A stretch of DNA of 46,737 nt, from positions 1-46,737 of the forward strand of contig JAKARC010000018.1 in assembly GCA_021822385.1 (NCBI GenBank), read 5' to 3'. Source of the DNA: Pseudomonadota bacterium. Its GTDB lineage: Bacteria > Pseudomonadota > Gammaproteobacteria > Steroidobacterales > Steroidobacteraceae. Position 1 is the first letter of the stretch, and each line of letters opens with the position of its first letter. The position numbers and the translations under genes are program-made. Below, piece after piece: positions 33,021-46,411 of this stretch. Below the pieces are notes generated by a model. That model did not search any database. It was not told the DNA's origin and worked only from the letters and a program-made list of their open reading frames with translations.

Positions 33021-34652
33021 ATGCCGGCCAGCGCCCCCGCCGATCCCGCCGCCTCCGCCGATCTCGCCCGCCGCATCGGCGGCTGGCTCAGCCTCTATCG
33101 GCTGCTGGTGCCGGCGGTGCTGCTCGGGGCGCGTGCGCTCGCCGGCGCTACCTTCATGCCGGTGACGCACCCGAGTCTGTTCGTCGGCGCCTGCGCCGGT
33201 TACTTCGGGGCCGCGCTCACCCTGGTGGTGCTGCAGGGCCTGCGTGGGGTGCAGCCGCTGATTCAGCCGCTCGCCAACTCGATGCTCGATGCCACGGCGA
33301 TCGGGCTCATCCTGTATGCGAGCGGGGGAGTCGCGAGCGGTCTGGGGATTCTGCTGGCGCTGCCGGTGCTCGCCCTGACGCTGCTCGCGCAGCGCCGCGA
33401 GGGCCTGCTGATCGCCGCGGCTGCGACCGCCGCGGTGCTCGTGCCGCAGGGACTGATCAGCATGCACTCGGCGCACCCGACCGATCTCGCCACGGCCGGC
33501 ATGCTCGGCGTGGTGCTGTTCGCGATCGCGGTGGCGGTGTGGCCGCTCACCGACCGGCTGCGCTCGAGCGAGGCGACGGTACGGCGCCAGGAGGTCGACC
33601 TCGCCAATCTGGCGCAGCTGTCCGAGTACATCGTGCGGCATCTGCGCGAGAGCATCCTGGTGATCGATCCGGAGGATCGGATCCGCCTGATCAATGAGTC
33701 GGCCGCACGCCTGCTCGGGGAGACGGCGCGCGTGCAGGCGCCGCTCGCACAGGTCTGCCCGGCGCTCCTCGAACGGCTCGCGCGCTGGCGCGAGAGTACC
33801 GACAGCACCGGCCTGTTCCCGCTCCAGGATCCGACGTTTGCAGCGCCCGACGGGGCGCGCGAGATCCGCGCGCATTTCGCAGCGCTGGGCGAGCACAGCC
33901 CGGCGGCCGTGCTGGTGTTTCTCGAGGACACGAGCGCGCTGGCCGAAAAGGTGCAGCAATCCAAGCTCGCGGCGCTCGGGCGGCTGTCGGCCAGCATCGC
34001 GCACGAGATCCGCAACCCCGTCGGGGCCATGAGTCACGCCGGTCAGCTGCTCGGGGAATCCGCCGCGCTCGGTCCGGAGGACCGGCGCCTGACGGAGATC
34101 ATCCGTACCCATGCCGGGCGGGTCAGCCACATCATCGACAGTGTGCTGCGCCTCTCGCGCCGGGAGGCGGCGCGGGCCGAGCAGCTCGCGCTCGCGGACT
34201 GGGCCGACGCGTTCCGCGAGGAGTTCTGTGAGACCATGCAGCTACCCCCGGATCGGCTCGTGCTGAGCGTGCCCGAGCGCGCGATCACGATCCGCTTCGA
34301 TCCGGCCCAGCTGCGCCAGATCGTCTGGAATCTGTGCGAGAACGCGCTGCGTCACGCCATGCCGGACTCCGGCGCGGGGGTCATCGAGATCCGTTGCGGG
34401 CGGCGCAGCGGGCGGCGACCGTTCCTCGAGATCGCCGATCGCGGCCCCGGCGTGCCACAGGATCAGGTTGAGCGTATCTTCGAGCCTTTCTTCAGCTCGG
34501 GCCGGGGGACGGGTCTGGGTCTGTTTTTGGCCCGCGAGCTGGCGCAAGCCAATGGCGCGACGCTGCTCTATGAGCCACGTCACGGCGGCGGCAGCGTATT
34601 TCGGCTGGTATTCGCGGACCCGAACCGGTGGACAGGGGAGATCGAGACTTGA
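33021..34652 (+). CDS. pilS: Sensor histidine kinase PilS
   Basis: Inner-membrane kinase of the PilS-PilR pair that controls pilin transcription. Residues 1-180 contain about six membrane segments (for example LGILLALPVLALTLLA and LGVVLFAIAVAVWPL). A PAS-type domain follows (LSEYIVRHLRESILVIDPED), then the dimerisation/phosphoacceptor helix with SIAHEIRNPVGAMSHAGQLL, and the ATPase domain with N box WNLCENALRHA, D box EIADRGPGVP and G box GRGTGLGLFLARELA. The length of 543 residues fits PilS. Its stop overlaps the probable pilR start. No other pilus gene is in the window; the pairing with sucCD is known in Xanthomonas relatives. Confidence 0.95.
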   Translation: MPASAPADPAASADLARRIGGWLSLYRLLVPAVLLGARALAGATFMPVTHPSLFVGACAGYFGAALTLVVLQGLRGVQPLIQPLANSMLDATAIGLILYASGGVASGLGILLALPVLALTLLAQRREGLLIAAAATAAVLVPQGLISMHSAHPTDLATAGMLGVVLFAIAVAVWPLTDRLRSSEATVRRQEVDLANLAQLSEYIVRHLRESILVIDPEDRIRLINESAARLLGETARVQAPLAQVCPALLERLARWRESTDSTGLFPLQDPTFAAPDGAREIRAHFAALGEHSPAAVLVFLEDTSALAEKVQQSKLAALGRLSASIAHEIRNPVGAMSHAGQLLGESAALGPEDRRLTEIIRTHAGRVSHIIDSVLRLSRREAARAEQLALADWADAFREEFCETMQLPPDRLVLSVPERAITIRFDPAQLRQIVWNLCENALRHAMPDSGAGVIEIRCGRRSGRRPFLEIADRGPGVPQDQVERIFEPFFSSGRGTGLGLFLARELAQANGATLLYEPRHGGGSVFRLVFADPNRWTGEIET

Positions 34653-36028
34653 GCGCGACTGAAAGCGCTGTGCGCGGCGACGGCACCCGACCTGCGGTGC
34701 TGATTGTGGATGACGAGCCGGACTTGCTCGAGCTGCTCAGCCTGACGCTGCGGCGCATGAACCTGCGTACCCGCACGGCCAATGATCTCGGCAGCGCGCA
34801 GAAGCTGCTGCGCAGCGAGCCGGTCGACCTGTGCCTGACGGACATGCGCCTGCCCGATGGCAATGGCCTGGAGCTGGTCGAGTGGATCCAGCGCAACCGC
34901 GCCGATCTTCCGGTCGCCGTCATCACGGCGCACGGCAGCGTGGAGGCGGCGGTGCGGGCGCTGAAGCTCGGCGCCTTCGATTTCGTCTCCAAGCCGCTCG
35001 ATCTGGGGGTTCTGCGCAAGCTGATCGACAACGCCATCCGGCTCGGCGCTGGTCCGCCGCCGCCGGCGCCGGAGTTCGGTCGGGCCCGGCTCATCGGCGA
35101 GTCGGCCCCGATGGGACATCTGCGCGAGCTCATCGCGCGCGTTGCGCGCAGCGAGGCGCCGGTGCACATCAGCGGGGAGTCCGGCACCGGCAAGGAGCTG
35201 GTCGCGCGCCTGATCCACGAGTCCGGTGCGCGCCGCGAGCGCCCCTTCATCGCCGTCAACTGCGGCGCCATCCCCACCGAGCTGATGGAGAGCGAGTTCT
35301 TCGGCCATCGGCGCGGCAGCTTCACCGGCGCGGTGGCCGACAAGAAAGGCCTCATCCAGGCCGCCGAGGGCGGCACGCTGTTTCTCGACGAGGTGGCCGA
35401 TCTGCCGCTGCACATGCAGGTGAAGCTGCTGCGCGTGGTGCAGGAGAAGACCGTGCGTCCCGTGGGCGAGGCGAATGAGGAAAAAGTGGACGTGCGCATC
35501 CTCTCGGCCACGCACAAGAACCTGATGGAGCTGGTCGCGCTCGGTCAGTTTCGCGAGGACCTGTTCTATCGCATCAACGTCATCGAGCTGCACGTGCCGG
35601 CGCTGCGCGAGCGCCCGGAGGACATTCCCGACCTCGCGCGCGCCGTGCTTGCGCGTCTCGGCCGCCGGCAGAGCGGCCCGACCCCGCGCATCGCCCCGGA
35701 TGCGCTGGCGATGCTCGCGGACTATCCCTTCCCGGGCAACGTACGCGAGCTCGAGAACGTGCTCGAGCGGGCGCTGACGCTGTGTCTCGGCGGCATGATC
35801 ACCGCCGAGCACATCAAGCTGCGCACCCCGACGCGAACGCCGCCGGCCGCCGCCGGCCTGGCTGCAGGGGCGAGTGGTCCGCTCGGCGATCACCTGGAAG
35901 GCATCGAGCGTAGCGCCATCGTGCAGGCGCTCGAGAAGACCCGCTACAACAAGACCGCCGCCGCCAAGCTCCTCGGCATGAGCTTTCGCGCGCTGCGCTA
36001 TCGGATCAAGAAGCTCGGAATCGAGTAG
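34649..36028 (+). CDS. pilR: Sigma-54-dependent response regulator PilR
   Basis: Response regulator activating pilA with RNA polymerase-sigma-54. Domains: receiver with acidic pocket VLIVDDEPD and phospho-Asp in LCLTDMRLPDGNG; AAA+ domain with Walker A GESGTGKE, the sigma-54 contact loop GSFTGA (a Ser form of GAFTGA also usual in PilR) and Walker B GGTLFLDEVADLP; C-terminal Fis-type helix-turn-helix NKTAAAKLLGMSFRALRYRIKK. I prefer the TTG at 34649, which overlaps the pilS TGA as TTGA and has AGGGGAG eight bases upstream, giving 459 residues. A GTG at 34628 in the same frame is the alternative. Coupled to pilS translation. Confidence 0.95.
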   Translation: MSATESAVRGDGTRPAVLIVDDEPDLLELLSLTLRRMNLRTRTANDLGSAQKLLRSEPVDLCLTDMRLPDGNGLELVEWIQRNRADLPVAVITAHGSVEAAVRALKLGAFDFVSKPLDLGVLRKLIDNAIRLGAGPPPPAPEFGRARLIGESAPMGHLRELIARVARSEAPVHISGESGTGKELVARLIHESGARRERPFIAVNCGAIPTELMESEFFGHRRGSFTGAVADKKGLIQAAEGGTLFLDEVADLPLHMQVKLLRVVQEKTVRPVGEANEEKVDVRILSATHKNLMELVALGQFREDLFYRINVIELHVPALRERPEDIPDLARAVLARLGRRQSGPTPRIAPDALAMLADYPFPGNVRELENVLERALTLCLGGMITAEHIKLRTPTRTPPAAAGLAAGASGPLGDHLEGIERSAIVQALEKTRYNKTAAAKLLGMSFRALRYRIKKLGIE

Positions 36029-36036
36029 CCGGGTAG

Positions 36037-36058
36037 CCGGGCAACACCGACTGCCCGG
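36037..36058 (+). terminator. Hairpin after pilR
   Basis: CCGGGCA and TGCCCGG form a perfect 7-bp stem around an 8-base loop, 8 bp after the pilR stop. No T-run follows, so it is at best a weak or Rho-assisted terminator. Confidence 0.35.
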
Positions 36059-36195
36059 TGCGCACGGCGAGGATGGCGCGCTGGTGCTTGCGGGGCCTGA
36101 CAGCCGGGGACAGGCTCCGGCACACCGCGTAACATCCCCGCGCGAACCGAGGGCACCGAATTGCGTCCGCGGAGCGATCCTCGGACCGTCATTCA

Positions 36196-36225
36196 TTGAC
36201 CCGTCTGATTGCTACAACGTATCAT
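36196..36225 (+). promoter_or_regulatory. Promoter with Zur/Fur-type box, upstream of the OprB-like porin
   Basis: TTGACC (36196-36201) and TATCAT (36220-36225) are separated by 18 bp, a good sigma-70 promoter. Overlapping the -10 is TGCTACAACGTATCA (36210-36224), which matches the perfect palindrome before znuA at 13 of 15 positions when compared in the orientation that shares the promoter direction. The znuA promoter has the same -35, the same 18-bp spacer and the same -10. A bound repressor would cover the -10. The predicted start of transcription is near 36232, pointing to the porin. Confidence 0.65.
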
Positions 36226-36584
36226 TTCGCGCCGACTCCTCGAGGGTCCCGGCAGACGGAAACAGTGACGGCACCTCGGCCGGGTGGCCTCCATGGGATA
36301 TCCAACATTCATGACGCGGAATGCACATGTTGCGCGCAGCACAGCCCCCTGAGCGACCGCTCGCGCCACCGGGCGCCCCCGCCTTGCCGCGCGGAGCGCC
36401 AGCGGCGCGCTTCGGCCCGTGGACGCGCGCGCGAACCGCGCACACAACCCTGTGCATGACCCAATTGCTGCGCGCGGTGAGCACTACGCGCGCACGCTCG
36501 GGCCGAGAAATTGCGCCGGGCGCTCGCCGCTAGCGCCCTGACCGAACAGCGCTGCAGCCGCTGTTGCACATGGAGACCCGCGTG
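36226..36584 (+). other. Long leader or gap before the porin gene
   Basis: About 350 bp separate the porin promoter from the porin start. No convincing gene lies here. A 19-codon frame (36293-36352) follows a GGGTGG sequence but has no recognisable product. If the promoter at 36196 drives the porin, this is an unusually long 5' leader that could hold a further control element; I see no known riboswitch in it. Confidence 0.4.
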
Positions 36585-37697
36585 ATGCGCAGGACGGCTC
36601 TTATTGCTGCGACCCTCATCTGTGCCCTGCGCGCGTCGGCCGCGGATGCCGGCCTCATTCCCTGGCAGGAATTTACGCCGCATGGCGAGTTCATCGGCGA
36701 AACGGTGGGCAATGTGGCCGGCGGCCTGGCGCGCGGCAGCACGGCAACGGCCTATTTCCAGGGGGGCTTCGATTGGATCGGCGCCGCGAACGGGGCTGAT
36801 CCCGGCGGAAAACTGGTCGTTCGGTATCTCGGAGTCGATACCGGTCAACCGGATGCGCTCTATGTGGGCGATGTGCAGGGCGTCAGCAACCTCACGACGC
36901 CGACAAACATCAATCGGCTGTTCAAGCTCTATTTCCGCCAAAGGCTGGGCGCGGTCACCACCCGTTTCGGCCTGATGGATGCCAACGACTATTTTGATTC
37001 CGTCCAGGCGGATCGTTATCTGTTGTGCGCCTCCTATGGAATATTTCCGGTGTGGAGCACGAACCTGCCCGGGACCAGCACGTATCCGTATTCGAGCCTG
37101 GGGGCAATCGTGTCCGTCGGTGGCAGCCGGCACCAGCTCGAAGCCGGCGTGTTCGGTGGCAATGCCCTGCATCCCTTTCTGCATCCGACGCAAAGCGGAA
37201 CGTTGGCGCTCATTCAGTACAACCAGTCCGGATCCTTGGGAGCGGGCACCTATGCGCTCAAGCTGGGCGGATTCTTCAATCACCAGAGCCCGCGCGCCGC
37301 AGCCCTCCTCGGACCGCAGCTGAACGGCTTTTTCGGCTCCGGTGTCTATCGGTTCCGGGCCGCTGGACTCGACTGGGGCACTTTCCTCATCGGCGGTGGC
37401 GCGCCCAACGCCGTCGCCAGCGTACCGTGGTACGTGGGCGGCGGCGTGCGTCTGAAAAAATGGTATCCCGGCCAGCCCGGCGATGTCCTCTCCGTCGGGT
37501 TTTCGCGCGCCAGTCTGAGTGGACAACCCCATGCCGAAACCGATTATGAGGCGACCGCCATTTTCAAGGTCTGTGCGGGGGTGGAGATTCAGCCCGACAT
37601 CCAGGTGATTGCGCATCCCGGTGGCCATCTGCCGACGGCGGTGGCCGGGATACTGCGCATCCGCGTAGATGTGGTCAGGCTGTTCGCGCAGCGCTGA
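36585..37697 (+). CDS. OprB-family outer-membrane porin
   Basis: A 370-residue exported protein with a signal peptide (MRRTALIAATLICALRASA, cleavage after ASA near residue 19) and the pattern of OprB carbohydrate-selective porins. FIGETVGNVAGG and YFQGGFDWIG are near the start, alternating beta-strand sequence fills the middle, and VEIQPDIQVIAHPGG near the end corresponds to the usual 'PD-QY-HPGG' signature. It is shorter than typical OprB (about 430-450) and ends LFAQR, not in an aromatic residue. The start at 36585 has GGAG nine bases upstream; an ATG 21 bp earlier has none. A Zur-type promoter upstream and the convergent znu operon suggest a role in zinc entry instead of sugar uptake, which is inference. 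Confidence 0.85.
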   Translation: MRRTALIAATLICALRASAADAGLIPWQEFTPHGEFIGETVGNVAGGLARGSTATAYFQGGFDWIGAANGADPGGKLVVRYLGVDTGQPDALYVGDVQGVSNLTTPTNINRLFKLYFRQRLGAVTTRFGLMDANDYFDSVQADRYLLCASYGIFPVWSTNLPGTSTYPYSSLGAIVSVGGSRHQLEAGVFGGNALHPFLHPTQSGTLALIQYNQSGSLGAGTYALKLGGFFNHQSPRAAALLGPQLNGFFGSGVYRFRAAGLDWGTFLIGGGAPNAVASVPWYVGGGVRLKKWYPGQPGDVLSVGFSRASLSGQPHAETDYEATAIFKVCAGVEIQPDIQVIAHPGGHLPTAVAGILRIRVDVVRLFAQR

Positions 37698-37719
37698 GCG
37701 CGCGGGCGTGCAGCGCTGC
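37688..37719 (+). terminator. Inverted repeat at the porin stop codon
   Basis: GCAGCGCT (37688-37695) and AGCGCTGC (37712-37719) form an 8-bp GC-rich stem with a 16-base loop, spanning the porin TGA. No T-run follows. The repeat lies between the convergent porin and zur genes and could act as a terminator for the porin transcript. Confidence 0.3.
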
Positions 37720-37857
37720 CCGGACTTCCCGGATGCGTCCCCGAGATCGGTCGCGCCGTGCGCCGTCTTGGGGTCGCGCGCGTGGATGAGTTCTGCCCTG
37801 AACGGATCAATGAGGATTTTGGCCCCGCAGGCTGCCGGCTCGGTGCGTCTGCCGATG

Positions 37858-38367
37858 CTACGATGCGGGCTGTGTGCGTCGTCCTCGAGCGCAGCATAGT
37901 GCGCATACACCGGTCAGCTCGAGCAGGCCGACGTCGAGCGTGAAATTCAACCGGCTGCCGAGACGCGAGGCAGCCTCGGACACGGCTTTGTCTTCCGCCT
38001 CGATCACCGTGCCACACTGGCGACAGATCAGGAGTTGACCCGGATGCGGCCCCTCGGGATGTTCGCACAGGACGAACGAGCGCGTTGAGTCCATGCGATG
38101 CACCAACCCGCTGTCCATCCAGAACTCGAGGGCCCGATACACTGCCGCCGGCGTCGAGCGCCCACCCGAGCGGCGCAGTCGGTCGAGAAGCTCGTAGGCC
38201 GTCAGCGCACCGCCCTCGGCCAGCAATACCTGCAGGACCGCGCGCCGCTGGCGCGTGACGCGCTGGCCGCGGACCCGGCATGTCCTCTCGAGCCTCTCGA
38301 GCACACGCTGCGTGTCATCCGCCGCGGCATGCTTCAGTTCCCTGCGTATGGTGTGCTTTGCGCTCAT
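37858..38367 (-). CDS. zur: Fur-family regulator, probably Zur
   Basis: A 169-residue Fur-family repressor. The winged-helix part is RQRRAVLQVLLAEGGALTAYELLDRL and AAVYRALEFWMDSGLVHRMDS. The structural-zinc cysteines are in LLICRQCGTVIE and GVCALC, both CxxC pairs. As the last gene of a zinc/manganese ABC operon, with its ATG overlapping the stop of the second permease gene (ATGA), it is best read as Zur, which represses zinc uptake when zinc is plentiful. Fur or Mur function cannot be excluded from sequence alone. The longer open frame to 38538 is ignored because it runs through the permease gene. Confidence 0.88.
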   Translation of the reverse strand: MSAKHTIRRELKHAAADDTQRVLERLERTCRVRGQRVTRQRRAVLQVLLAEGGALTAYELLDRLRRSGGRSTPAAVYRALEFWMDSGLVHRMDSTRSFVLCEHPEGPHPGQLLICRQCGTVIEAEDKAVSEAASRLGSRLNFTLDVGLLELTGVCALCCARGRRTQPAS

Positions 38368-39164
38368 AGCGAATGCGCCAGCGCGGCCGCGCCACCCCGC
38401 CAGCGCCCGACGACATAACAGAGTATACCCGCGACCCCCACAAAGAACCCCACCGGCCAGTTGCTGACGTATGCCAGTGCAATGGCGCTCCAGATGGTCA
38501 ACAGGGAAATCCCCACCGTCAGCGCGAGCGCCGACCACGGATGATTCGTGAAGGCGCGCGCCGCGCTACCCGGCCCAACCATCAGGCTGAACACCAACAA
38601 TGCTCCGACGACCGGCACCGCAATGGCGGCCGCTATGCCGAGAACACCGAGGAACAGCAGCTCGAGCGCCGATGGACGGGCACCGGCGGCGGCGGCCAGC
38701 TCGCGCGAAAGCGAATCGAGCAGCAGCGGCCGCGCAATCACGGCCAGGAGCACGAGCATCACGACGCTGCAGCCCCCCACCAGCGCGAGCTCTGCCGCAT
38801 CGATGCCGAGCAGGTTGCCGAAGAGCAGACCATAGACGCTTTCCGCGTACCGGCCCGACAGGCTGAGCAGGAGCATGCCGAGGGCGAGCGCACCGGTGAG
38901 CCAGAGCGCGCTGGCGACTTCGCGCCGTCCGGCGCGCTGCAGCTGATCGATCGCGAGCACACCGAGCACCGCGAACCCCGCCAGTCCCCACAGCTCATTC
39001 ACGCCGAGGAGACTGGCCGCGGCGGCGCCGGGGAAGGCGCCGAGCGGCAGCGCGTGCGCGGCGAACGACGCCCGGCGCGCCACGACGAAGAACCCGACGC
39101 TGCCTGCGCTTATGGCCACGAGCGTCGCGACGATCCACGCGTGCAGCATGAAGGGGGCAAACAT
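38364..39164 (-). CDS. Metal ABC transporter permease, second copy (ZnuB/TroD-like)
   Basis: A 266-residue inner-membrane permease of the ABC-3 family with about seven to eight hydrophobic segments. Family features include RRASFAAHALPLGAFPGAA, the VYGLLFGNLLGI segment and VPVVGALLVFSLMVGPGSAA, equivalent to the conserved VGALLV...PAA stretch. The start at 39164 lies 1 bp after the stop of the first permease gene. The two permeases are clearly different proteins, so the channel is probably a heterodimer as in TroC/TroD systems, unlike the ZnuB homodimer of E. coli. Its stop overlaps the zur start. Confidence 0.88.
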   Translation of the reverse strand: MFAPFMLHAWIVATLVAISAGSVGFFVVARRASFAAHALPLGAFPGAAAASLLGVNELWGLAGFAVLGVLAIDQLQRAGRREVASALWLTGALALGMLLLSLSGRYAESVYGLLFGNLLGIDAAELALVGGCSVVMLVLLAVIARPLLLDSLSRELAAAAGARPSALELLFLGVLGIAAAIAVPVVGALLVFSLMVGPGSAARAFTNHPWSALALTVGISLLTIWSAIALAYVSNWPVGFFVGVAGILCYVVGRWRGGAAALAHSL

Positions 39165-39165
39165 C

Positions 39166-40068
39166 TCAGCGTTCCTGACAACCGGAAAGCGGGGAGGCAG
39201 TGAGCGCGCCGACATCGCGATGCGCGAGCACGCTCGTGAGCACATAGGCGCCGCCGATCAACATGACGATGAAGAAGCTGACCGGCCAGCCGTGGCCCAG
39301 CGTCCAATAGAAGCTGTCATAGGCGAGTACGATGCCACCCCAGGTCGCCCCGAGACCGATCGCGACCGCAAGCACCAGCGCGCTCACGGGCTTGCGTGCC
39401 ACCTGCAGGGCGGCGGCCGCAGGTCCGATCAGAAGCGCCGTGGCGAGAATGGCCCCGACCGTGATTGCGGCCAGCGCCACCGCGAGCGCCAGTGCGAGAG
39501 CATGGACCAGACTCGCGGTGCGCACATTGACACCCTGGGCGCGGGCCATGTCCACGGACAGTGAACTGACGAGCAGCGGACGAAATACCAGCACACTTGC
39601 GGCAAGTGCAATGACCGCGATGGTGAGCACCGTGGGCACGATCGAGGGCGCAATCGAGAACATGGAGCCGAACAGTATGCTGATGGCCGCGTTGCTGACA
39701 CTGCGCAGCGTCACGTCGAGATACAGCAGCAGCGCAGCGAGCCCAAGGCCGGCGCCCAAGACGACACCGGTCACAAGGTCGCGCTCGCGCGCCTCCTGCA
39801 CCTGCGCCATCTCCATCACCCCGGCGGCAAGGCCCGCGAGCCCGATGAACCCGAGCAAGGGGTTGATGCCGAGCAGGTAGGCGGCCGAGCCGCCGGCGCC
39901 GCTGATATCCGCCAGAGCGTGCCCGGCGAAGGATTGTCGACGCATGACTGTGGACAGGCCGACGACGGCGCACACCACGGCGGCGCCACCGCCCACCGCC
40001 AGCGCCACGCGCACCGGACCGTTGCTCCAGAACGCGCTAATGAAGCCCGCGCCAACGCCGCTGATCAT
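39166..40068 (-). CDS. znuB: Metal ABC transporter permease, first copy (ZnuB-like)
   Basis: A 300-residue ABC-3 family permease. After an N-terminal helix comes the conserved MRRQSFAGHALADISGAGGSAAYLLG segment, then SILFGSMFSI, and the TVGAILATALLIGPAAAAL stretch that matches the family's VGxLLVxALLxxPAA core. About eight membrane segments. It starts 3 bp after znuC and ends 1 bp before the second permease. Substrate is zinc or manganese by family; the Zur setting favours zinc. Confidence 0.9.
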   Translation of the reverse strand: MISGVGAGFISAFWSNGPVRVALAVGGGAAVVCAVVGLSTVMRRQSFAGHALADISGAGGSAAYLLGINPLLGFIGLAGLAAGVMEMAQVQEARERDLVTGVVLGAGLGLAALLLYLDVTLRSVSNAAISILFGSMFSIAPSIVPTVLTIAVIALAASVLVFRPLLVSSLSVDMARAQGVNVRTASLVHALALALAVALAAITVGAILATALLIGPAAAALQVARKPVSALVLAVAIGLGATWGGIVLAYDSFYWTLGHGWPVSFFIVMLIGGAYVLTSVLAHRDVGALTASPLSGCQER

Positions 40069-40071
40069 TGT

Positions 40072-40869
40072 CTAGGGCACCGTCACCGTATGGATCGGGT
40101 CGCGCTCAAGAGCGATTCGGGTCTCATCGCGCTCGCCGGCGACCACCACCACCCGCCCGTGCACGCGCAGCACGTCGACGTGGTAGCCGTAAAGACGGCT
40201 CAGCACCTCGGTCCTGACGACATCCTCCGCCTTGCCCGAGACGGCACACCCGTTCGCGAGGTACACGATGCGATCCACGGCAGGCAGGAGCGGGTTCATA
40301 TCGTGCGCCGACAGCAGCACTGCGGTGCCGTAGTCGCGCGCCAGACGGCGCAGCAGCGCCACGATGTCAGCGGTACTGCCGACGTCGAGGTTTGCGAGCG
40401 GCTCATCCAGGAGCAGTAGCTTCGGCCGGCGCACCAGAGCATGCGCCAGCAATACCCGCTGCTGCTGGCCGCCGGAGAGCGCCCCGGAGCGTTGGTCGGC
40501 GAATTCCGCCGCGCCGACGGCCCGCAGCATCTCCTCCACCTGCGCGGCGCGGGTCTTCGACGGCAACCGCATGCCGAAGCGCGCGCCGTCGAGCCCGAGC
40601 GCGACGATGTCGCGCGCCCGCAGCGGCAACCCAGGGTCGATCGAGATTTTCTGCGGCACGTAGCCGATCCCCGCCGTGGGGGCATCGATCCGGCCGCTGC
40701 TGAGCGGTATGAACCCGAGGATTGCGCGCAGCAACGTGGTCTTGCCCGACCCGTTCGGGCCGATGAGGGCGCAGAACTGTGCCGGTTGAAGCGCAAAACT
40801 GACTTCGCGCAGCACGGACCGCTCGCCCAGACGGACGCCCACCCGATCGAGCGCCACGGTGGTGCTCAT
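40072..40869 (-). CDS. znuC: Metal ABC transporter ATP-binding protein ZnuC
   Basis: A 265-residue ATPase with Walker A GPNGSGKTTLLRAILGF, Q-loop GYVPQKISID, signature LSGGQQQRVLLAHAL, Walker B KLLLLDEPLANLDVGS and switch His in LLSAHDMNPLLPAVDRIVY. The ATG overlaps the znuA stop (ATGA). The last 30 residues are an extension beyond the ABC fold, with the HVDVLRVHGRVVVVAGE segment seen in some ZnuC/AztA-type proteins. It powers import of the metal delivered by the binding protein. Confidence 0.93.
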   Translation of the reverse strand: MSTTVALDRVGVRLGERSVLREVSFALQPAQFCALIGPNGSGKTTLLRAILGFIPLSSGRIDAPTAGIGYVPQKISIDPGLPLRARDIVALGLDGARFGMRLPSKTRAAQVEEMLRAVGAAEFADQRSGALSGGQQQRVLLAHALVRRPKLLLLDEPLANLDVGSTADIVALLRRLARDYGTAVLLSAHDMNPLLPAVDRIVYLANGCAVSGKAEDVVRTEVLSRLYGYHVDVLRVHGRVVVVAGERDETRIALERDPIHTVTVP

Positions 40870-41813
40870 TGCGTGCTCACCGCGCCGCCGAGTCTTGCCG
40901 TCGAAATCCCGTGCGCAACGGCGGCACGCAGCGCGCGTATCTCCGCAAGCATCCAGCGTTGATAATCATATCCGGGCTCGGGCATCAGCTCATAAACCCC
41001 CACCACGGGTATGTGCTCCGCCCGGGCAAGCTGCAGGAACGATGCCGTCAAGGGGTCCGTCACCTGCTGGTTGTAGACAAACACCTTCACCTTCCGGTCG
41101 CGCAGCAATGCCTCCTCGGTGGCCACGTCCTGCGGCGCCGGGTCGGTGCCGTTCATGATCGCGAGCTGAAGGGCCAACGGGGTGAGGATGCGGCAACCGG
41201 CGGCCTTGAGCATCATGTCGGCCACAGGCTCGGTCACCGCCACCGGCGTGCCGCTGTACTGCGCGCGGAAGGCCGCAATTTGTGCGTGCCAGGACTGCAG
41301 CGATGCGTCGAAGCGCCGCACATGGGCGGCAAAATAGGCCGCATGCTGCGGCGCCATCGCAGTGAACGCCGTGGCCGCGGCTGCGGCCACCGCCGGCATG
41401 GTCTTCTGCCCATACCACAAGTGCGGGTTGACGGTATCCGCCGGGAGGTTCAGCAATCGCCGGACGATGAAAATGCGCCGCGCGGGGTTCGGATTTGCGG
41501 CAATGAGCGGCTTGATCCAGGCGTCATAGCCAAGACCGTTCTCCACGATGAGACTCGCGTGCGCGATCTTCTCGGCAATCGCTGGACTCGCTTGAAATTC
41601 GTGCGGATCGGTGTTGGGGTTGGTCTCGATCGCCCGCACCTTGATATAGGGCGCGCCAATCTGCGCCAGAACGTTTGCATACTGGCTCTCGACACCAATC
41701 GCGAGCGGCGGTCCATGCCGGTGCTGCGCCGCACAGCCGGCCGCGATGACCGCATATCCCGCGGTCACGGCCAGACCGAGGTACCGCCATCGTTTCCTCG
41801 CGCAGCGACTCAT
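40866..41813 (-). CDS. znuA: Metal-binding lipoprotein of the ABC importer (ZnuA/TroA family)
   Basis: A 315-residue periplasmic binding protein of the cluster A-I metal family with a lipobox AAGC near residue 27. Likely metal ligands: His71 in TDPHEFQASPA, His131 in VNPHLWYG, Glu195 in VAVTEPVADMM and Glu275 in VYELMPEPGYDYQ. E. coli ZnuA uses His at the third site; Glu there is found in manganese/zinc PsaA-type proteins. The His-rich loop of classical ZnuA is absent. So Zn versus Mn is open, though the Zur neighbour favours zinc. The ATG at 41813 is used instead of a GTG two codons earlier. The start is 30 bp from the operator. Confidence 0.88.
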   Translation of the reverse strand: MSRCARKRWRYLGLAVTAGYAVIAAGCAAQHRHGPPLAIGVESQYANVLAQIGAPYIKVRAIETNPNTDPHEFQASPAIAEKIAHASLIVENGLGYDAWIKPLIAANPNPARRIFIVRRLLNLPADTVNPHLWYGQKTMPAVAAAAATAFTAMAPQHAAYFAAHVRRFDASLQSWHAQIAAFRAQYSGTPVAVTEPVADMMLKAAGCRILTPLALQLAIMNGTDPAPQDVATEEALLRDRKVKVFVYNQQVTDPLTASFLQLARAEHIPVVGVYELMPEPGYDYQRWMLAEIRALRAAVAHGISTARLGGAVSTQ

Positions 41814-41842
41814 AGACACCGTCCCGAACCGTGATGCTGCTA

Positions 41843-41872
41843 ATGATACATTGTATCACTTCGGCCGGTCAA
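41843..41872 (-). promoter_or_regulatory. znuA promoter with perfect Zur/Fur-type palindrome
   Basis: On the minus strand, TTGACC (41872-41867), an 18-bp spacer and TATCAT (41848-41843) form a sigma-70 promoter. TGATACATTGTATCA (41844-41858, plus strand) is a perfect 7-1-7 inverted repeat covering the -10. The predicted transcript starts about 23 bases before the znuA ATG. The box resembles Zur operators in being AT-rich and palindromic; assignment to the operon's own Fur-family protein is inference. The same design is found before the porin gene. Confidence 0.75.
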
Positions 41873-42246
41873 CGGATCGCTGCGCGAATGGCGAACGTGT
41901 GCCGCCGGGCCGAGCTGTGGGACAAGCCGTGACCGCCGAGGCATTCTTGTGGGACTGGACGGCGAGCGCGATACATGCCGCGATGCGGCAACGCTTAGAC
42001 GAACCTCACGCAGTGCCAAGGATACAGCAGCGGCGAATGGCCCGATGGCGGTCAGCGCCCTCGCATTGCCTCACCAAGATTGCTACTCAGCACGATCGTT
42101 GCATCACCCGGGATGTTACCGACGGCGCTCGATCGTATAGCCTTCCGGCGAGGCTAAACTGCCCTCTGCTTTCTCGAATTCGAGCGACCGAAATGAGACC
42201 GAGAGGCAGAACTCGGTAACAAAATTACGTGCGGCAATACGAGGGA
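41873..42246. other. Intergenic region, no gene seen
   Basis: About 370 bp between the znuA promoter and the end of the MFS gene. It has lower GC than its surroundings and no protein-like frame. It contains CTCGAATTCGAG (42173-42184), a perfect 12-bp palindrome, and ACCGAG/CTCGGT (42193-42212), a 6-bp stem that might act as a weak terminator for the MFS transcript. Neither has a known role. Confidence 0.4.
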
Positions 42247-43668
42247 TCAGGGACTGATCTCCTCCAGGGCACGGCCGCGGGTCCGGGGGCCGAAGAGGGC
42301 AATGGATCCCATGACCATGAGCATGGAGAAGCCAATGAACATCGCCACGGCAGGTACCCCGCCGGTGTGCAACAGATAGCCAATGGCAAGACCGGCAAAG
42401 GCCGCGGATAGTCGGCTCCAGGAATAGACGAATCCAATGGCGCGGGCGCGAAACCGAGTTGGGAACAGCTCCGCCTGATAATTATGAAAAGCATAGGACA
42501 TCACGTTCGAGCACAGAGTGAACAACACCCCGAGTGCGATCAATGCCACAGGCGTCGATAGCACCGCGAACACTCCGATTAAGACCAGCATGGCGAACGC
42601 AGCGACCACAATCTGCGTCTTACGTTCGCAGCGATCGGAAAACAGTGTTCCGATCAGCGGGCCGAATGGGTTGGCGATCGCAATGATGAACGCATATTCG
42701 AGGCTCTCCGTGACGTGGATGCCACGATGGATCAACAGGGTTGGCACCCAGGCGGCAAAGCCGTAGAAGCCGATTGTCTGGAAGAAGTTGAACACCGAAA
42801 GCATGAGCGTCCGCGTCCGATAAGGCGGACGGAACGCCTCGGAGAGTGAGCCGCTGGCACTGTGCTCAGCGTCATTGCGCTCGGGCAGCGGCTCCGGCAG
42901 CGGACTGCCGCCGACCGCTGCCGCCGCTTCCAGGCGAGCAACGATGCCTTCGGCTTCAACATTGCGTCCATGTTTGAGAAGCCAGCGCGGACTCTCAGGG
43001 ATGCCGAGCAGCAGAAACCAGACCAGCAGTGCGCCGAACGACCCGATCAGCACCACCCAGCGCCAACCTTCGAAGCCGAGCGGAGCAATCGGCACCAACT
43101 TCCATGCCAAAAAGGCGACTACAGGCACCACAGCATAGGTGATCATCTGATTGACCGAGAAGGCACGCCCGCGCACGTTCTTCGGGACCAGCTCGGCAAT
43201 GTAGGTGTCGATCGTCACCAATTCGATGCCGAGACCGATGCCGGCAATGAAGCGCCAGATGTTCAACCATAGACCGGTTTGGGCGAACGCCATGATTGCG
43301 GTGCAGATCATGTACCACATCAGCGCGCCCACGAAGGCCGTGCGACGTCCTACTCGGTCTGCAATCGGGCTGACCATGAGCGTGCCCACCCAGAGCCCGG
43401 CGAAGGTCGCGAAGACGAAGATACCAACCCCCGTCACGGCGATGACCTTCAACGAGGCCAGCCAGCCAAGGGAGGCTGGGCTGAACAGTCCTGACTTCAC
43501 CATTCCCGGGGTCACGTAGGCCGTGAAGAACAAATCGTAAAATTCGAACACTCCGCCGAGCGACAGAAGTATCACCATACGCCAAATCTGCCAGGAGACC
43601 GGCAGCCGGTCGAGACGTGCGGCGAGAGCCGCGCCGGACGGGGCCTTGGGCGTGTCGGGCTTGTTCAT
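42247..43668 (-). CDS. MFS transporter, metabolite:H+ symporter type
   Basis: A 473-residue major facilitator with 12 expected membrane segments, probably importing or exporting an organic acid or sugar. FEFYDLFFTAYVTPGM in the first helix (the D-x-Y-D-like site of AAHS and sugar-porter families), ADRVGRRTAFVGALMWY in the loop 2-3 motif and GIGLGIELVTIDTYIAELVP in helix 4-5 support this, as does PESPRWLLKHGR after helix 6, a sugar-porter motif. The ATG at 43668 has AGGAAG six bases upstream; the TTG immediately before it is not used. The substrate is not known. It lies 215 bp downstream of the exported-protein operon and may be separate from it. Confidence 0.85.
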   Translation of the reverse strand: MNKPDTPKAPSGAALAARLDRLPVSWQIWRMVILLSLGGVFEFYDLFFTAYVTPGMVKSGLFSPASLGWLASLKVIAVTGVGIFVFATFAGLWVGTLMVSPIADRVGRRTAFVGALMWYMICTAIMAFAQTGLWLNIWRFIAGIGLGIELVTIDTYIAELVPKNVRGRAFSVNQMITYAVVPVVAFLAWKLVPIAPLGFEGWRWVVLIGSFGALLVWFLLLGIPESPRWLLKHGRNVEAEGIVARLEAAAAVGGSPLPEPLPERNDAEHSASGSLSEAFRPPYRTRTLMLSVFNFFQTIGFYGFAAWVPTLLIHRGIHVTESLEYAFIIAIANPFGPLIGTLFSDRCERKTQIVVAAFAMLVLIGVFAVLSTPVALIALGVLFTLCSNVMSYAFHNYQAELFPTRFRARAIGFVYSWSRLSAAFAGLAIGYLLHTGGVPAVAMFIGFSMLMVMGSIALFGPRTRGRALEEISP

Positions 43669-43883
43669 CAATTTCTTCCTGCCCAGCTTAGTACTCGAGG
43701 AGCGCCTTCCGCGTCCCCAACAGGGCGGGTCCGGCCGGTCCGATATCGCGATTGTATCCCTTCGTCCCTTCCGCTTCGGCGCTCTTGCGTATCCTCGTTA
43801 TGTACGTCTCTCGAAGGAAGCCCGCGCAGACAACATCTCGCCGCGCGCTGTACGCGGAGCTTGTATGACCGACCGCGCAGCTG

Positions 43884-45392
43884 CTACCGATGAATAGCCC
43901 ACAAGACCATGGCGTCAAACAGCACTTTACCCTGCGGCGTCATGTCATCGTACGAAGAATTGTCCAACGGCAACAGCGCACGCCGTGCCGGCGCAATGAA
44001 CCCGTCGGCCATCCGTGCCCCTTTGGGATAGCCGAAAATCGCATCCTCACGCGGCTCGTTGGGCAGCGTTGCGATCACAGTCGCATCCGGCAGCGGCCAC
44101 GCCCATTTCAGAACTCCTGGGTGATAGGTGAACTTCATTAACCCCGGCTTCAGGCCTGCCGCCATGGGACTCCAGGCGCCGACGATGTCGAGATAATTCT
44201 CCGGCGGATCGTCGCTTTCGAGAATCTCGCCGTGCTCCCCGTAATCGGTGTAACGGTCCCGGCCGGTGAAATGCAGCGTGTCAGATAGCAAACCTTCAAG
44301 CGATATCAGCGGAATAGGCGCGTCGACGTATTTATTCGCGAGCTTCCACTTCGAGCACGTGCTGGAGATCATGATCAGATTCATCCCACGCGCGACGCTC
44401 TGCGGCGCGGTCTGGTCCACAACTTTCACTTCGAATCCAAGACGGCGCAGGTGCGCGACGATGTGCGCATCGGAGCGCCGCCCTTCCCCGCCATTGACCC
44501 GCTCGACATAGAGCACCTTCATACCGCGTGCCGCCCGACGCAGCGCGGTATCGAGCGCCTCCGGGTCGTAAACCGGTTCCGGTGGCGGCGGCGATACGGC
44601 CCACTGCAAAGCGGAATCAAAGAGCTTCAGACCGATCGCCCATTGGCGAAGATTGGGGTCCGCGGCGGGCGGCCCGTACACTGCGGTGAGGAGATGAAAA
44701 TCGTCATTGCCCAGATAAAAGCCCACGCGGCGTGCCGGTGCCGTGCGCCCGTTCTCCAGCGTCGCTTCGCGCTCATAGGTGAACACGGCGGCATAGCGTC
44801 GGGAACCAAAGAAGTCTGCAATTACAGTGCCGCCGGGACCTGGGCGCCCCCATCCCGCGGTTTCGGGCTCCAGGTACAACGTGCCGAATAGCTGCGGCTT
44901 TAGACCCACAGCGCGGCTGATCTCTGAGGTTATGTTTGCACCGAAGCCGTAGAGAACGGCGAAGCTGTCCGCGTACTGCTGCACCGGATCGATAACACCA
45001 AAGTCGCGATGCAATACCGGTCCGGTCATGCCGAGGTTCGGGTAATCGAATGTATTCCAAGTAAAAATCGGAATCGGCATGTCCGCGAACTTCTTGCCGA
45101 GCTCGTGCGCGTTGGCGGTGGAGGAGATCACGATCAGGGCGGCACCATCGGCAGCCGCCTGGGGAGCCGCCGCATTTACGGTGCGTACCACGAACCCAAG
45201 GTTGCGCAGATGACGCGCCACAGCCGCATCGTCATTAGGCTTGGGGCTCGTAATTCCACCGGTGACGAACAGCACTGCTTTGCCCGCAAGCTTCGGCCAG
45301 GGCTGAAGCGCTGCGTATCCCTGTGAGATCAAAACGCTCGCAAGCCAGATCAACAGAACGCGCGTGCTCAATTTGCTGAAGAGTCCGTTCAT
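43884..45392 (-). CDS. Exported protein made of two tandem copies of an unnamed module
   Basis: A 502-residue protein with an N-terminal membrane segment (LLIWLASVLISQGYAAL), probably a signal peptide or anchor. Residues 38-267 and 291-502 are two copies of one module. Each starts with a beta strand (KAVLFVTGG; MKVLYVERV), then DDAAVARHLRNLGFVVRTV versus DAHIVAHLRRLGFEVKVV, then LIVISST versus LIMISST, and MPIPIFTWN versus APIPLISLE. Each ends in an LFD.....WA helix (LFDSALQWAV; LFDAMVLWAI). The fold looks Rossmann-like and recalls ThuA/glutamine-amidotransferase-like domains of secreted proteins, but I see no catalytic triad. GGAGG precedes the ATG, which overlaps the upstream stop (ATGA). 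Function unknown. Confidence 0.8.
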   Translation of the reverse strand: MNGLFSKLSTRVLLIWLASVLISQGYAALQPWPKLAGKAVLFVTGGITSPKPNDDAAVARHLRNLGFVVRTVNAAAPQAAADGAALIVISSTANAHELGKKFADMPIPIFTWNTFDYPNLGMTGPVLHRDFGVIDPVQQYADSFAVLYGFGANITSEISRAVGLKPQLFGTLYLEPETAGWGRPGPGGTVIADFFGSRRYAAVFTYEREATLENGRTAPARRVGFYLGNDDFHLLTAVYGPPAADPNLRQWAIGLKLFDSALQWAVSPPPPEPVYDPEALDTALRRAARGMKVLYVERVNGGEGRRSDAHIVAHLRRLGFEVKVVDQTAPQSVARGMNLIMISSTCSKWKLANKYVDAPIPLISLEGLLSDTLHFTGRDRYTDYGEHGEILESDDPPENYLDIVGAWSPMAAGLKPGLMKFTYHPGVLKWAWPLPDATVIATLPNEPREDAIFGYPKGARMADGFIAPARRALLPLDNSSYDDMTPQGKVLFDAMVLWAIHR

Positions 45393-46411
45393 CGCACCTC
45401 CGAGACGGGAGTACCGAGCCGCCACAGCGCCGCGGGCTTACCACCGCTCGGCGCTACGGCGAGCCACAGCACGCCAACCGGGGGGGCAATTGCGAACGCT
45501 GTGACACGACGCGTCAGGGGAAATCGCCCGGCGGCCTGATAGCGCACGAAGCTCTGCATTTGAATTGCGCTTACTGCGCCGCCGCCGACAAAGAAAATCC
45601 CACCCTTCCAACCGTGAGGGCCGAGGGGACGAAAGGCAAACGCAGCGCGCAAATCTCTGCCGTACTGAATGGGGAATCGGTCGAACGTAAAGCCGAGATC
45701 CGCGTCGACGATGAGCGCGCGGCCGTTGCTGCAGGCGGCGAATAGACGCCGACCCACCGTATCCATCGCCAGAGCGCGTGGCGTACTGCAGCGCTGCAGT
45801 GGGATAGCACCCTCATAGTTCATCCGGCGCGCACCAATGACATCAATCGCATCGTGCGTCGAGTTCACCACGTACAACGTTCCACGGCCGTTGGCAGCCA
45901 TTTGTCCCAATGCGCCTACGAGCCGCACACTCCCGAGCGCACGGCCTGTCTGCGGATCTAGGCGCGTAACTGTGTGCGCCGTGCGGTATTCGATGAAAAG
46001 CATCCGCGCCAAAGAATCGTAAACGAGCTCCGAAGGCGTCGCCGCGCCAAGCCTCCGCTGGCGCAGCACGCGCAACGACCTGGCGGCGAGAAACTCAAGA
46101 CGTGAGGGATCGCTTACAGCCACGACGATCGTTCCATCGACCGTAGTCAGGGCGCGCACCGTGCCGTCAAGGTGCTGATGATCGATCCGCTCAGCGCTCG
46201 TTGGCGCGTAGAGACTCACCGTATCACCTTGCCCGACACAGACGTCACGTCCGTCCACCGCCAATGCTCCGACACTTCCTGCGTCTGGCAGTGAGATACG
46301 GTAAAGCCCGTGGTACGGAAAGATGGTCGCGTGGACTACCGGACCTGCGACCGTAAGCGCCACAAGGCAGATCAGGTTCGATACAAGTTGTCGCACCCCG
46401 GCTGCGCTCAT
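45389..46411 (-). CDS. Exported beta-propeller (YncE-like) protein
   Basis: A 340-residue protein with an N-terminal signal segment (LICLVALTVAGPVVHA). It has a repeated blade-like pattern of about 40-45 residues: GALAVDGRDVCVGQGDTV, ALTTVDGTIVVAV, ELVYDSLARMLFIEY, QMAANGRGTLYVVN, ALAMDTVGRRLFAAC. This is the usual look of YncE/NHL-type seven-bladed propellers. It probably acts in the periplasm as a binding scaffold; no catalytic motif is seen. Start and stop both overlap neighbours by ATGA, tying it to the PstS-like gene before and the duplicated-module gene after. Exact role unknown. Confidence 0.75.
   Translation of the reverse strand: MSAAGVRQLVSNLICLVALTVAGPVVHATIFPYHGLYRISLPDAGSVGALAVDGRDVCVGQGDTVSLYAPTSAERIDHQHLDGTVRALTTVDGTIVVAVSDPSRLEFLAARSLRVLRQRRLGAATPSELVYDSLARMLFIEYRTAHTVTRLDPQTGRALGSVRLVGALGQMAANGRGTLYVVNSTHDAIDVIGARRMNYEGAIPLQRCSTPRALAMDTVGRRLFAACSNGRALIVDADLGFTFDRFPIQYGRDLRAAFAFRPLGPHGWKGGIFFVGGGAVSAIQMQSFVRYQAAGRFPLTRRVTAFAIAPPVGVLWLAVAPSGGKPAALWRLGTPVSEVR

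Follow-up and report, generated by a model that had tools for sequence, protein, structure and literature searches.

Positions 36196-36225 of the window, by which we mean the whole 46,737-nucleotide stretch of DNA analysed here, probably hold a Zur-repressed promoter that descends from a znuA promoter of the lineage and drives an OprB/FeoP-like porin, which would let zinc in for the importer ZnuABC. Judged from the sequence, the Zur link of the porin to the znu genes is probable, and zinc transport by the porin in the service of Znu is plausible.

Results

A porin gene tail to tail with a znu operon

The porin gene, on the forward strand, lies tail to tail with a znuA-znuC-znuB-znuB2-zur operon that is read on the reverse strand from 41813 down to 37858 (Table 1). 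The preliminary description of this DNA had read the same gene content from the letters, and our searches agree with it: ZnuA, an ABC ATPase, two ABC-3 permeases and a Fur-family protein, with an OprB-family porin on the opposite strand. The Fur-family protein (P0002) scored 117 bits against the Zur model PRK11639, under the curated cut-off of 167 bits, versus 48 bits for the next model. By sequence it is nearer to Zur than to the Fur or PerR models, and it is encoded within the znu operon. The order znuA-C-B-B2-zur, with zur last, was found in all 12 relatives whose available sequence was long enough to show it.

Table 1. Features of the porin-znu locus, in window coordinates
Feature	Position	Strand	Remarks
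Porin promoter	36196..36225	+	-35 TTGACC 36196-36201, 18-bp spacer, -10 TATCAT 36220-36225
Porin Zur-type box TGCTAC-AAC-GTATCA (predicted)	36210..36224	+	overlaps spacer and -10; a single half-site base departs from TGATAC-N3-GTATCA
Porin leader	36226..36584	+	359 nt, from -10 to chosen porin start
OprB-family porin (P0001)	36585..37697	+	370 aa; signal peptide probable on visual inspection; 16-stranded barrel in the model
zur (P0002)	37858..38367	-	last gene of the znu operon; best NCBIfam match Zur PRK11639, 117 bits
znuB2, ABC-3 permease	38364..39245	-	mechanical ORF start; later start near 39164 likely
znuB, ABC-3 permease	39166..40068	-	
znuC, ABC ATPase	40072..40869	-	
znuA (P0003)	40866..41813	-	periplasmic zinc-binding protein family PF01297
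znuA Zur-type box (predicted)	41844..41858	-	perfect palindrome TGATACAATGTATCA
znuA promoter	41843..41872	-	TTGACC-N18-TATCAT

Among the Pfam-tested genes at 33021-41813 none is a sugar gene; an MFS gene (Sugar_tr) lies at 42247-43671. A PilS/NtrC-type two-component pair occupies 33021-36028, just upstream of the porin promoter, and two long ORFs without a Pfam match (43884-45425 and 45389-46411) could be mis-called frames.

The draft assembly of the window genome is fragmented into 90 contigs, and GC3 is 0.74 in the porin gene versus 0.78-0.88 in znu, zur and the two-component genes (0.75 in the MFS gene beside znuA). Both points would suit an assembly error that fused a foreign porin contig to the znu contig. 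However, the porin promoter matches the znuA promoters of this very genus, and the join would have to fall just there, which makes such an error very improbable.

Two near-identical promoters on opposite strands

The two promoters proposed in the preliminary description are both present, one on each strand (36196-36225 and 41843-41872), with the same TTGACC, the same 18-bp spacer and the same TATCAT. The pattern TTGACC-N18-TATCAT matched twice in the window and not once in any of 100 dinucleotide-preserving shuffles. The overlapping 15-mers TGATACAATGTATCA (znuA) and TGCTACAACGTATCA (porin) are identical at 13 of 15 positions, as had been counted. One of the two differences sits in the 3-bp spacer, so that a single half-site base is off; the spacer AAC of the porin box also occurs in two sister znuA boxes (L054 and L064). 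The two promoters form inverted repeats flanking porin and znu (window 36196-41872), and recombination between them would exchange which operon each one serves.

We built a promoter profile over the -35, spacer and box from 23 sister znuA promoters, leaving out both window sites. The window znuA promoter ranked first (48.4) and the porin promoter second (37.5), the latter under every sister znuA promoter (training range 41.3-52.2); the next window site scored -1.5, once opposite-strand readings of the two promoters were set aside. The best score was 3.2 in 20 mononucleotide-shuffled windows and 2.7 among 13 further loci with box-like sequences in the window's genome. The -35 of the porin promoter is closer to the TTGACA consensus than the TGGACG of most sister znuA promoters. 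Taken whole, the predicted promoter is strong evidence that the porin site is more than a chance box.

This promoter is the only sigma-70-like site found at 35900-36800 (shuffles average 0.1). No second promoter-like site was found in the porin leader, and Rfam models gave no match at E up to 1 over 35900-42300, leader included. At 359 nt the leader, which would be co-transcribed with the porin, is long beside the 29 nt of the window znuA and the 6-7 nt or so estimated by eye for most of the sister genes (L053-L077). With their start codon so close behind the -10 TATCAT, the znu mRNAs of these sisters would be leaderless or nearly so. In Acidithiobacillaceae, the distance from box to porin is about 50-145 bp, varying with the start chosen.

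The box marks znuA in the genus, and the porin promoter resembles a znuA promoter

At up to one mismatch, the pattern TGATACANWGTATCA is present in 28 of the 58 genomes of the genus. Twenty-four of the matched loci, the window's own included, are true palindromes, and all 24 lie upstream of znuA; the other four are one-sided matches away from znuA. A search with a free spacer added one exact palindrome, in G305, which is counted below among the sites elsewhere. By this distribution, the palindrome is a mark of the znuA promoter in the genus.

Searched as TGATAC-N3-GTATCA at up to one mismatch, the 58 genomes gave 97 sites: 24 at znuA, one at the window porin and 72 elsewhere (12 for the reversed control), up to 10 of these in the largest genome. 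Because single-mismatch sites away from znuA thus occur about 1.2 times per genome, the box by itself is weak evidence. The window's own genome has exactly two such sites, those of the porin and of znuA. A third candidate in this genome, C27:16824, was rejected, as it has two mismatches and no matching promoter (profile -5.0); the gene after it resembles, by eye, one for a Tat-secreted protein.

The 14 bases beside the porin box agree at 11 positions with the znuA promoters of two close sisters (L060 and L068), and at 5 with the window's own znuA promoter. Against L060, 20,000 random placements in the window reached at most 10 matches, the stretch and the best relatives having been picked after inspection. 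Given this resemblance to sister promoters, the porin promoter looks like a descendant, or copy, of a znuA promoter of the lineage.

These results bear on two rival explanations. The first, that the two promoters resemble each other by chance, can appeal to the frequency of single-mismatch boxes, but neither the shuffles searched for the promoter pair, nor the profile scores of shuffled windows, nor the random placements of the flank reached what is seen at the porin. We therefore reject chance for the whole promoter, where we give it practically no credence, and not for the box alone. The second is that the porin promoter is a functionless leftover, copied from znuA during a rearrangement, the real promoter of the porin being another. 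A flank closer to the sisters' znuA promoters than to the window's own, the long leader, and the arrangement of the promoters as inverted repeats bracketing porin and znu would all suit a leftover. Its -10 is nevertheless intact and its -35 near consensus, and the search ahead of the porin turned up no other promoter-like site. In addition, Acidithiobacillus has the same association of porin, znu and box, with the box spelled differently (see below), and a local accident does not explain this recurrence. We consider a leftover quite improbable.

The protein is a predicted 16-stranded porin of the OprB family

P0001 matched PF04966 with 48.6 bits (cut-off 22.9). No other Pfam family matched it at E up to 0.001, so that membership of the Msp family is unlikely. 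Its AlphaFold2 model has 16 strands (pLDDT 86.1, pTM 0.81), and the best PDB match of the model is Pseudomonas putida OprB (4gey), with a TM-score of 0.75 by query length and 16% identity; searched by sequence, the PDB gave no match at E up to 1. P0001 is therefore assigned to the OprB porin family, as a modelled 16-strand barrel. OprB is a sugar porin, and the preliminary description had mentioned the usual link of the family to sugars; the window protein is better viewed otherwise, as it groups with the FeoP-type, metal-linked OprB porins.

The porin was not found in the same-genus genomes sampled and has its best named relatives in Acidithiobacillaceae

In a sample of 296 genomes of the order, that of the window included, we found four distant relatives of the porin besides the window's own, none of them in the same genus. 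The porin was not found in at least 20 same-genus genomes of this sample. Other OprB-family matches occur in 31 of the 58 genus genomes (the window's own included), and the five closest sister genomes (G176, G196, G307, G308 and G318) gave no OprB-family match, with a profile that scores even the window porin weakly and could miss a diverged copy. Across a phylum sample, distant relatives with 25-33% identity appeared in 40 of 398 genomes, window included, and a plasmid search returned four weak records.

Among named genomes, the best matches are from Acidithiobacillaceae: 50% identity in A. ferrivorans (L109) and 40-42% in five others. A gammaproteobacterial metagenome-assembled genome (L115) carries a relative with 38% identity. 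The porin gene of A. montserratensis and that of A. marinus are divergent from znuA-C-B-B2, and the intergenic region holds the palindrome TGCAAC-N3-GTTGCA. A survey of metal-transport genes round 103 distant porin loci turned up one Fe-type binding protein (L119), one NRAMP, one COG0523, two FeoB (L144 included) and nine ABC ATPases. As metal genes are few at these loci, we confine the claim of a general metal link to Acidithiobacillaceae.

Separate porin branches carry Fur-like and Zur-type boxes

Searches of 17 genomes of the A. montserratensis genus gave 40 porin matches, 30 of them with loci examined. Together with the named loci they make up a tree of 38 rows, from which three duplicates and two fragments had been dropped. 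In one branch of 16 rows, which we call the FeoP branch, feoAB is adjacent in 14 (only feoB was recognised in one) and znuA lies downstream in two. A Fur-like box (up to 6/19 mismatches) was found in 13 of the 16, and a Zur-type box in none at up to one mismatch and in one (L243) at two. A second branch (X, 7 rows) has neither type of box. A third, the Zur branch, comprises eight genes in nine rows, two of which are identical. There, TGCAAC-N3-GTTGCA lies within 500 bp upstream of six of the seven genes with upstream sequence (five exact, one with a single mismatch); for the seventh (L144) it is found ahead of the DUF1826 gene that directly precedes the porin. In five of the eight cases, porin and znuA are divergent. 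None of the 24 other porins of the tree that were examined (16 in the FeoP branch, seven in branch X and one from A. ferrivorans) has the palindrome when one mismatch is allowed. The mature proteins carry a net charge of +2 for P0001, -6 to +1 in the Zur branch and -8 to -19 in the FeoP branch; the overall charge of P0001 or of the Zur branch does not point to a preference for cations.

The window porin pairs with an A. ferrivorans porin, L249 (support 100/98), and the pair joins the Zur branch (96/89), a placement of moderate strength since the window row is long-branched. It thus falls outside the feoAB-linked branch, and has znu and zur as neighbours instead of feoABC. Upstream of it the best match to a Fur box has 10/19 mismatches, which amounts to none.

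These data in part bear out the idea, put forward in the preliminary description, of an outer-membrane channel induced by zinc starvation and feeding Znu, with the box expected before OprB-like genes near znu in related genomes. Porins of the Acidithiobacillaceae sister branch do carry the Zur-type palindrome of their own lineage, most of them divergent from znuA. To this extent the regulatory reading withstands the refuting condition named in that description, absence of the box in orthologous loci. The expectation fails at two other relatives. L249, the closest (51% identity), sits after an NRAMP-family transporter gene; neither type of box was found within 500 bp of it, nor ahead of the NRAMP gene, which speaks against a strict zinc rule. 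The L115 locus lacks a TGATAC-type box even with two mismatches allowed.

Some loci combine features of zinc and iron systems. Three porins of the Zur branch (L255, L256 and L259) have an exact Zur-type palindrome together with a Fur-like box (4/19 mismatches), which suggests double control by zinc and iron. In Ca. Igneacidithiobacillus taiwanensis (L144/L244), box, DUF1826, porin, feoA and feoB follow in series, so that an iron-transport cluster is headed by a zinc-type box. L242 and L243 have the porin-znuA arrangement of A. caldus, and in both the Zur-type palindrome precedes znuA, without mismatch in L242 and with one in L243; the Fur-like match of the porin has 5/19 mismatches in L242 and 7/19, over the threshold, in L243. 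Two regulators may thus meet at these loci. In Acidithiobacillus sp. YTS05 (L113 6299-8867), a transposase-like gene interrupts a Zur-boxed porin gene.

The porin may then be Zur-controlled and still be a FeoP-like pore of general use or for another metal, such as iron or manganese, with zinc entry incidental. The NRAMP gene before the nearest relative, the feoAB genes and Fur-like boxes of the FeoP branch, the three porins with both boxes and the feoA-feoB pair downstream of L144 all lean that way. Against this, the window porin stands beside znu and zur and lacks a Fur box, and most Zur-branch porins are divergent from znuA. We regard such a general or other-metal pore as unlikely, although by no means negligible.

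Targets of the Acidithiobacillus palindrome and its candidate regulator

The palindrome TGCAAC-N3-GTTGCA has 16 exact sites in seven Acidithiobacillaceae genomes. An eighth genome searched, that of L115, lacks the palindrome even when one mismatch is allowed, and the A. ferrivorans genome is not enriched in it (10 sites versus 8 for the reversed control). Fifteen of the 16 exact sites fit by context, the remaining one being in A. ferrivorans. They precede znuA (four, two of them in common with a divergent porin), a porin (one), DUF1826-porin (one), cobW/COG0523 (two), TonB-receptor-like genes (four) and amino-acid permease genes (three). DUF1826 goes with Zur. Six of the seven box-headed products tested were confirmed by Pfam, and a truncated one (L229) had no match. 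Of the four products called TonB-receptor-like, one (L234) is so assigned by Pfam and three by the likeness of their N-termini. The permease sites (L220, L221 and L236, in three Acidithiobacillus genomes) are exact palindromes at the start of the gene, which Pfam identified in L220 and L236; possibly these permeases take up zinc-amino-acid complexes. In the accessible portion of a review, the listed Zur targets include znuABC, COG0523 and TonB receptors (PMC6103462).

A PRK11639 search of 17 Acidithiobacillus genomes gave matches that read mostly as Fur itself. A second Fur-family protein is present in all 17 (L297-L313); the one compared (L296) is identical to the window Zur at 43 of 121 positions. 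In five of six inspected loci its gene is divergent from a recognisable peroxiredoxin gene, a context described for PerR in the part of a published account available to us (PMC2631029), and this second regulator may thus be Zur or PerR.

Discussion

We favour the reading of the porin promoter as a Zur-repressed derivative of a znuA promoter. The two window promoters share both promoter and box, the link between box and znuA is genus-wide, and the association of porin, znu and box recurs in Acidithiobacillus. With ample zinc, zinc-loaded Zur would sit on the palindrome over the -10 and block both promoters; as zinc falls, both would open. The porin would then make the outer membrane more permeable to Zn2+ or to small complexes of the metal, and the zinc would be carried inward by ZnuABC.

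A wider proposal, on which we are evenly divided, is that a branch of OprB/FeoP porins is dedicated to zinc, is controlled by Zur and not by Fur, and works with ZnuABC both in Acidithiobacillus and in the lineage of the window. The pair of porin and importer would have been inherited, or re-formed in separate lineages, with differently spelled operators, and would provide a passive yet regulated route for zinc across the outer membrane. The feoP-znuA locus of A. caldus, interpreted in print as serving iron transport, would then mark the split between an iron (Fur) and a zinc (Zur) branch.

Little is known about how zinc gets through the outer membrane where no TonB receptor carries it. Within the same porin superfamily, one branch has Fur-like boxes and another Zur-type boxes; if our reading is true, passive entry of metals is regulated at the level of single porins, and iron and zinc are assigned to sister branches. 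Divalent metals stay soluble for acidophiles, and it is in acidophiles (Acidithiobacillus) that a porin which may share the switch of ZnuABC recurs. The pairing of porin and znuA in these acid-loving relatives suggests a pore for zinc uptake under scarcity.

Comparison with known systems

ZnuD-type TonB-dependent receptors are active, TonB-driven systems. ZnuD and other Zur-controlled receptors of this kind are similar to our case in providing outer-membrane entry of zinc under Zur; they differ in being driven by TonB, while the model of the window protein is a porin barrel of 16 strands. The best structural match, P. putida OprB, differs in that the window porin is placed with zinc genes. Among the matches listed in the open-access literature, no title reported a Zur-controlled OprB/FeoP porin.

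Msp porins are a mycobacterial family. Published excerpts describe one of them, MspD of Mycobacterium smegmatis, as induced by zinc starvation and by zur deletion (PMC7174638, PMC13098993). It is, like our candidate, a Zur-controlled outer-membrane pore near znuABC-type genes that is proposed to aid zinc entry; unlike it, it belongs to the Msp and not the OprB family, in another kind of outer membrane and under another Zur. The view that a passive porin had no established place in Zur regulons is thus superseded by these excerpts. In addition, the abbreviations of a Zur-regulon table, in the available part of a review, include the outer-membrane porin oprD (PMC6103462), and sections of a study of P. 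aeruginosa attribute the repression of OprD by zinc to CzcR, not Zur (PMC10393844).

As far as the available text goes, a Zur-controlled porin (MspD) and FeoP are hence both already known. Extracts on FeoP describe an OprB-like porin for which a Fur box is predicted, found with feoABC in A. ferrooxidans (PMC2631029), and a feoP-znuA-htrB cluster in A. caldus, where Fur shifted the feoP promoter (PMC7237784). On this description, FeoP shares with the window porin its superfamily, a link to metal uptake and a box for a Fur-family regulator at the promoter. It differs in its feoABC partner and, in A. caldus, its Fur-bound promoter, whereas the window porin has no Fur-like box and falls in a separate branch.
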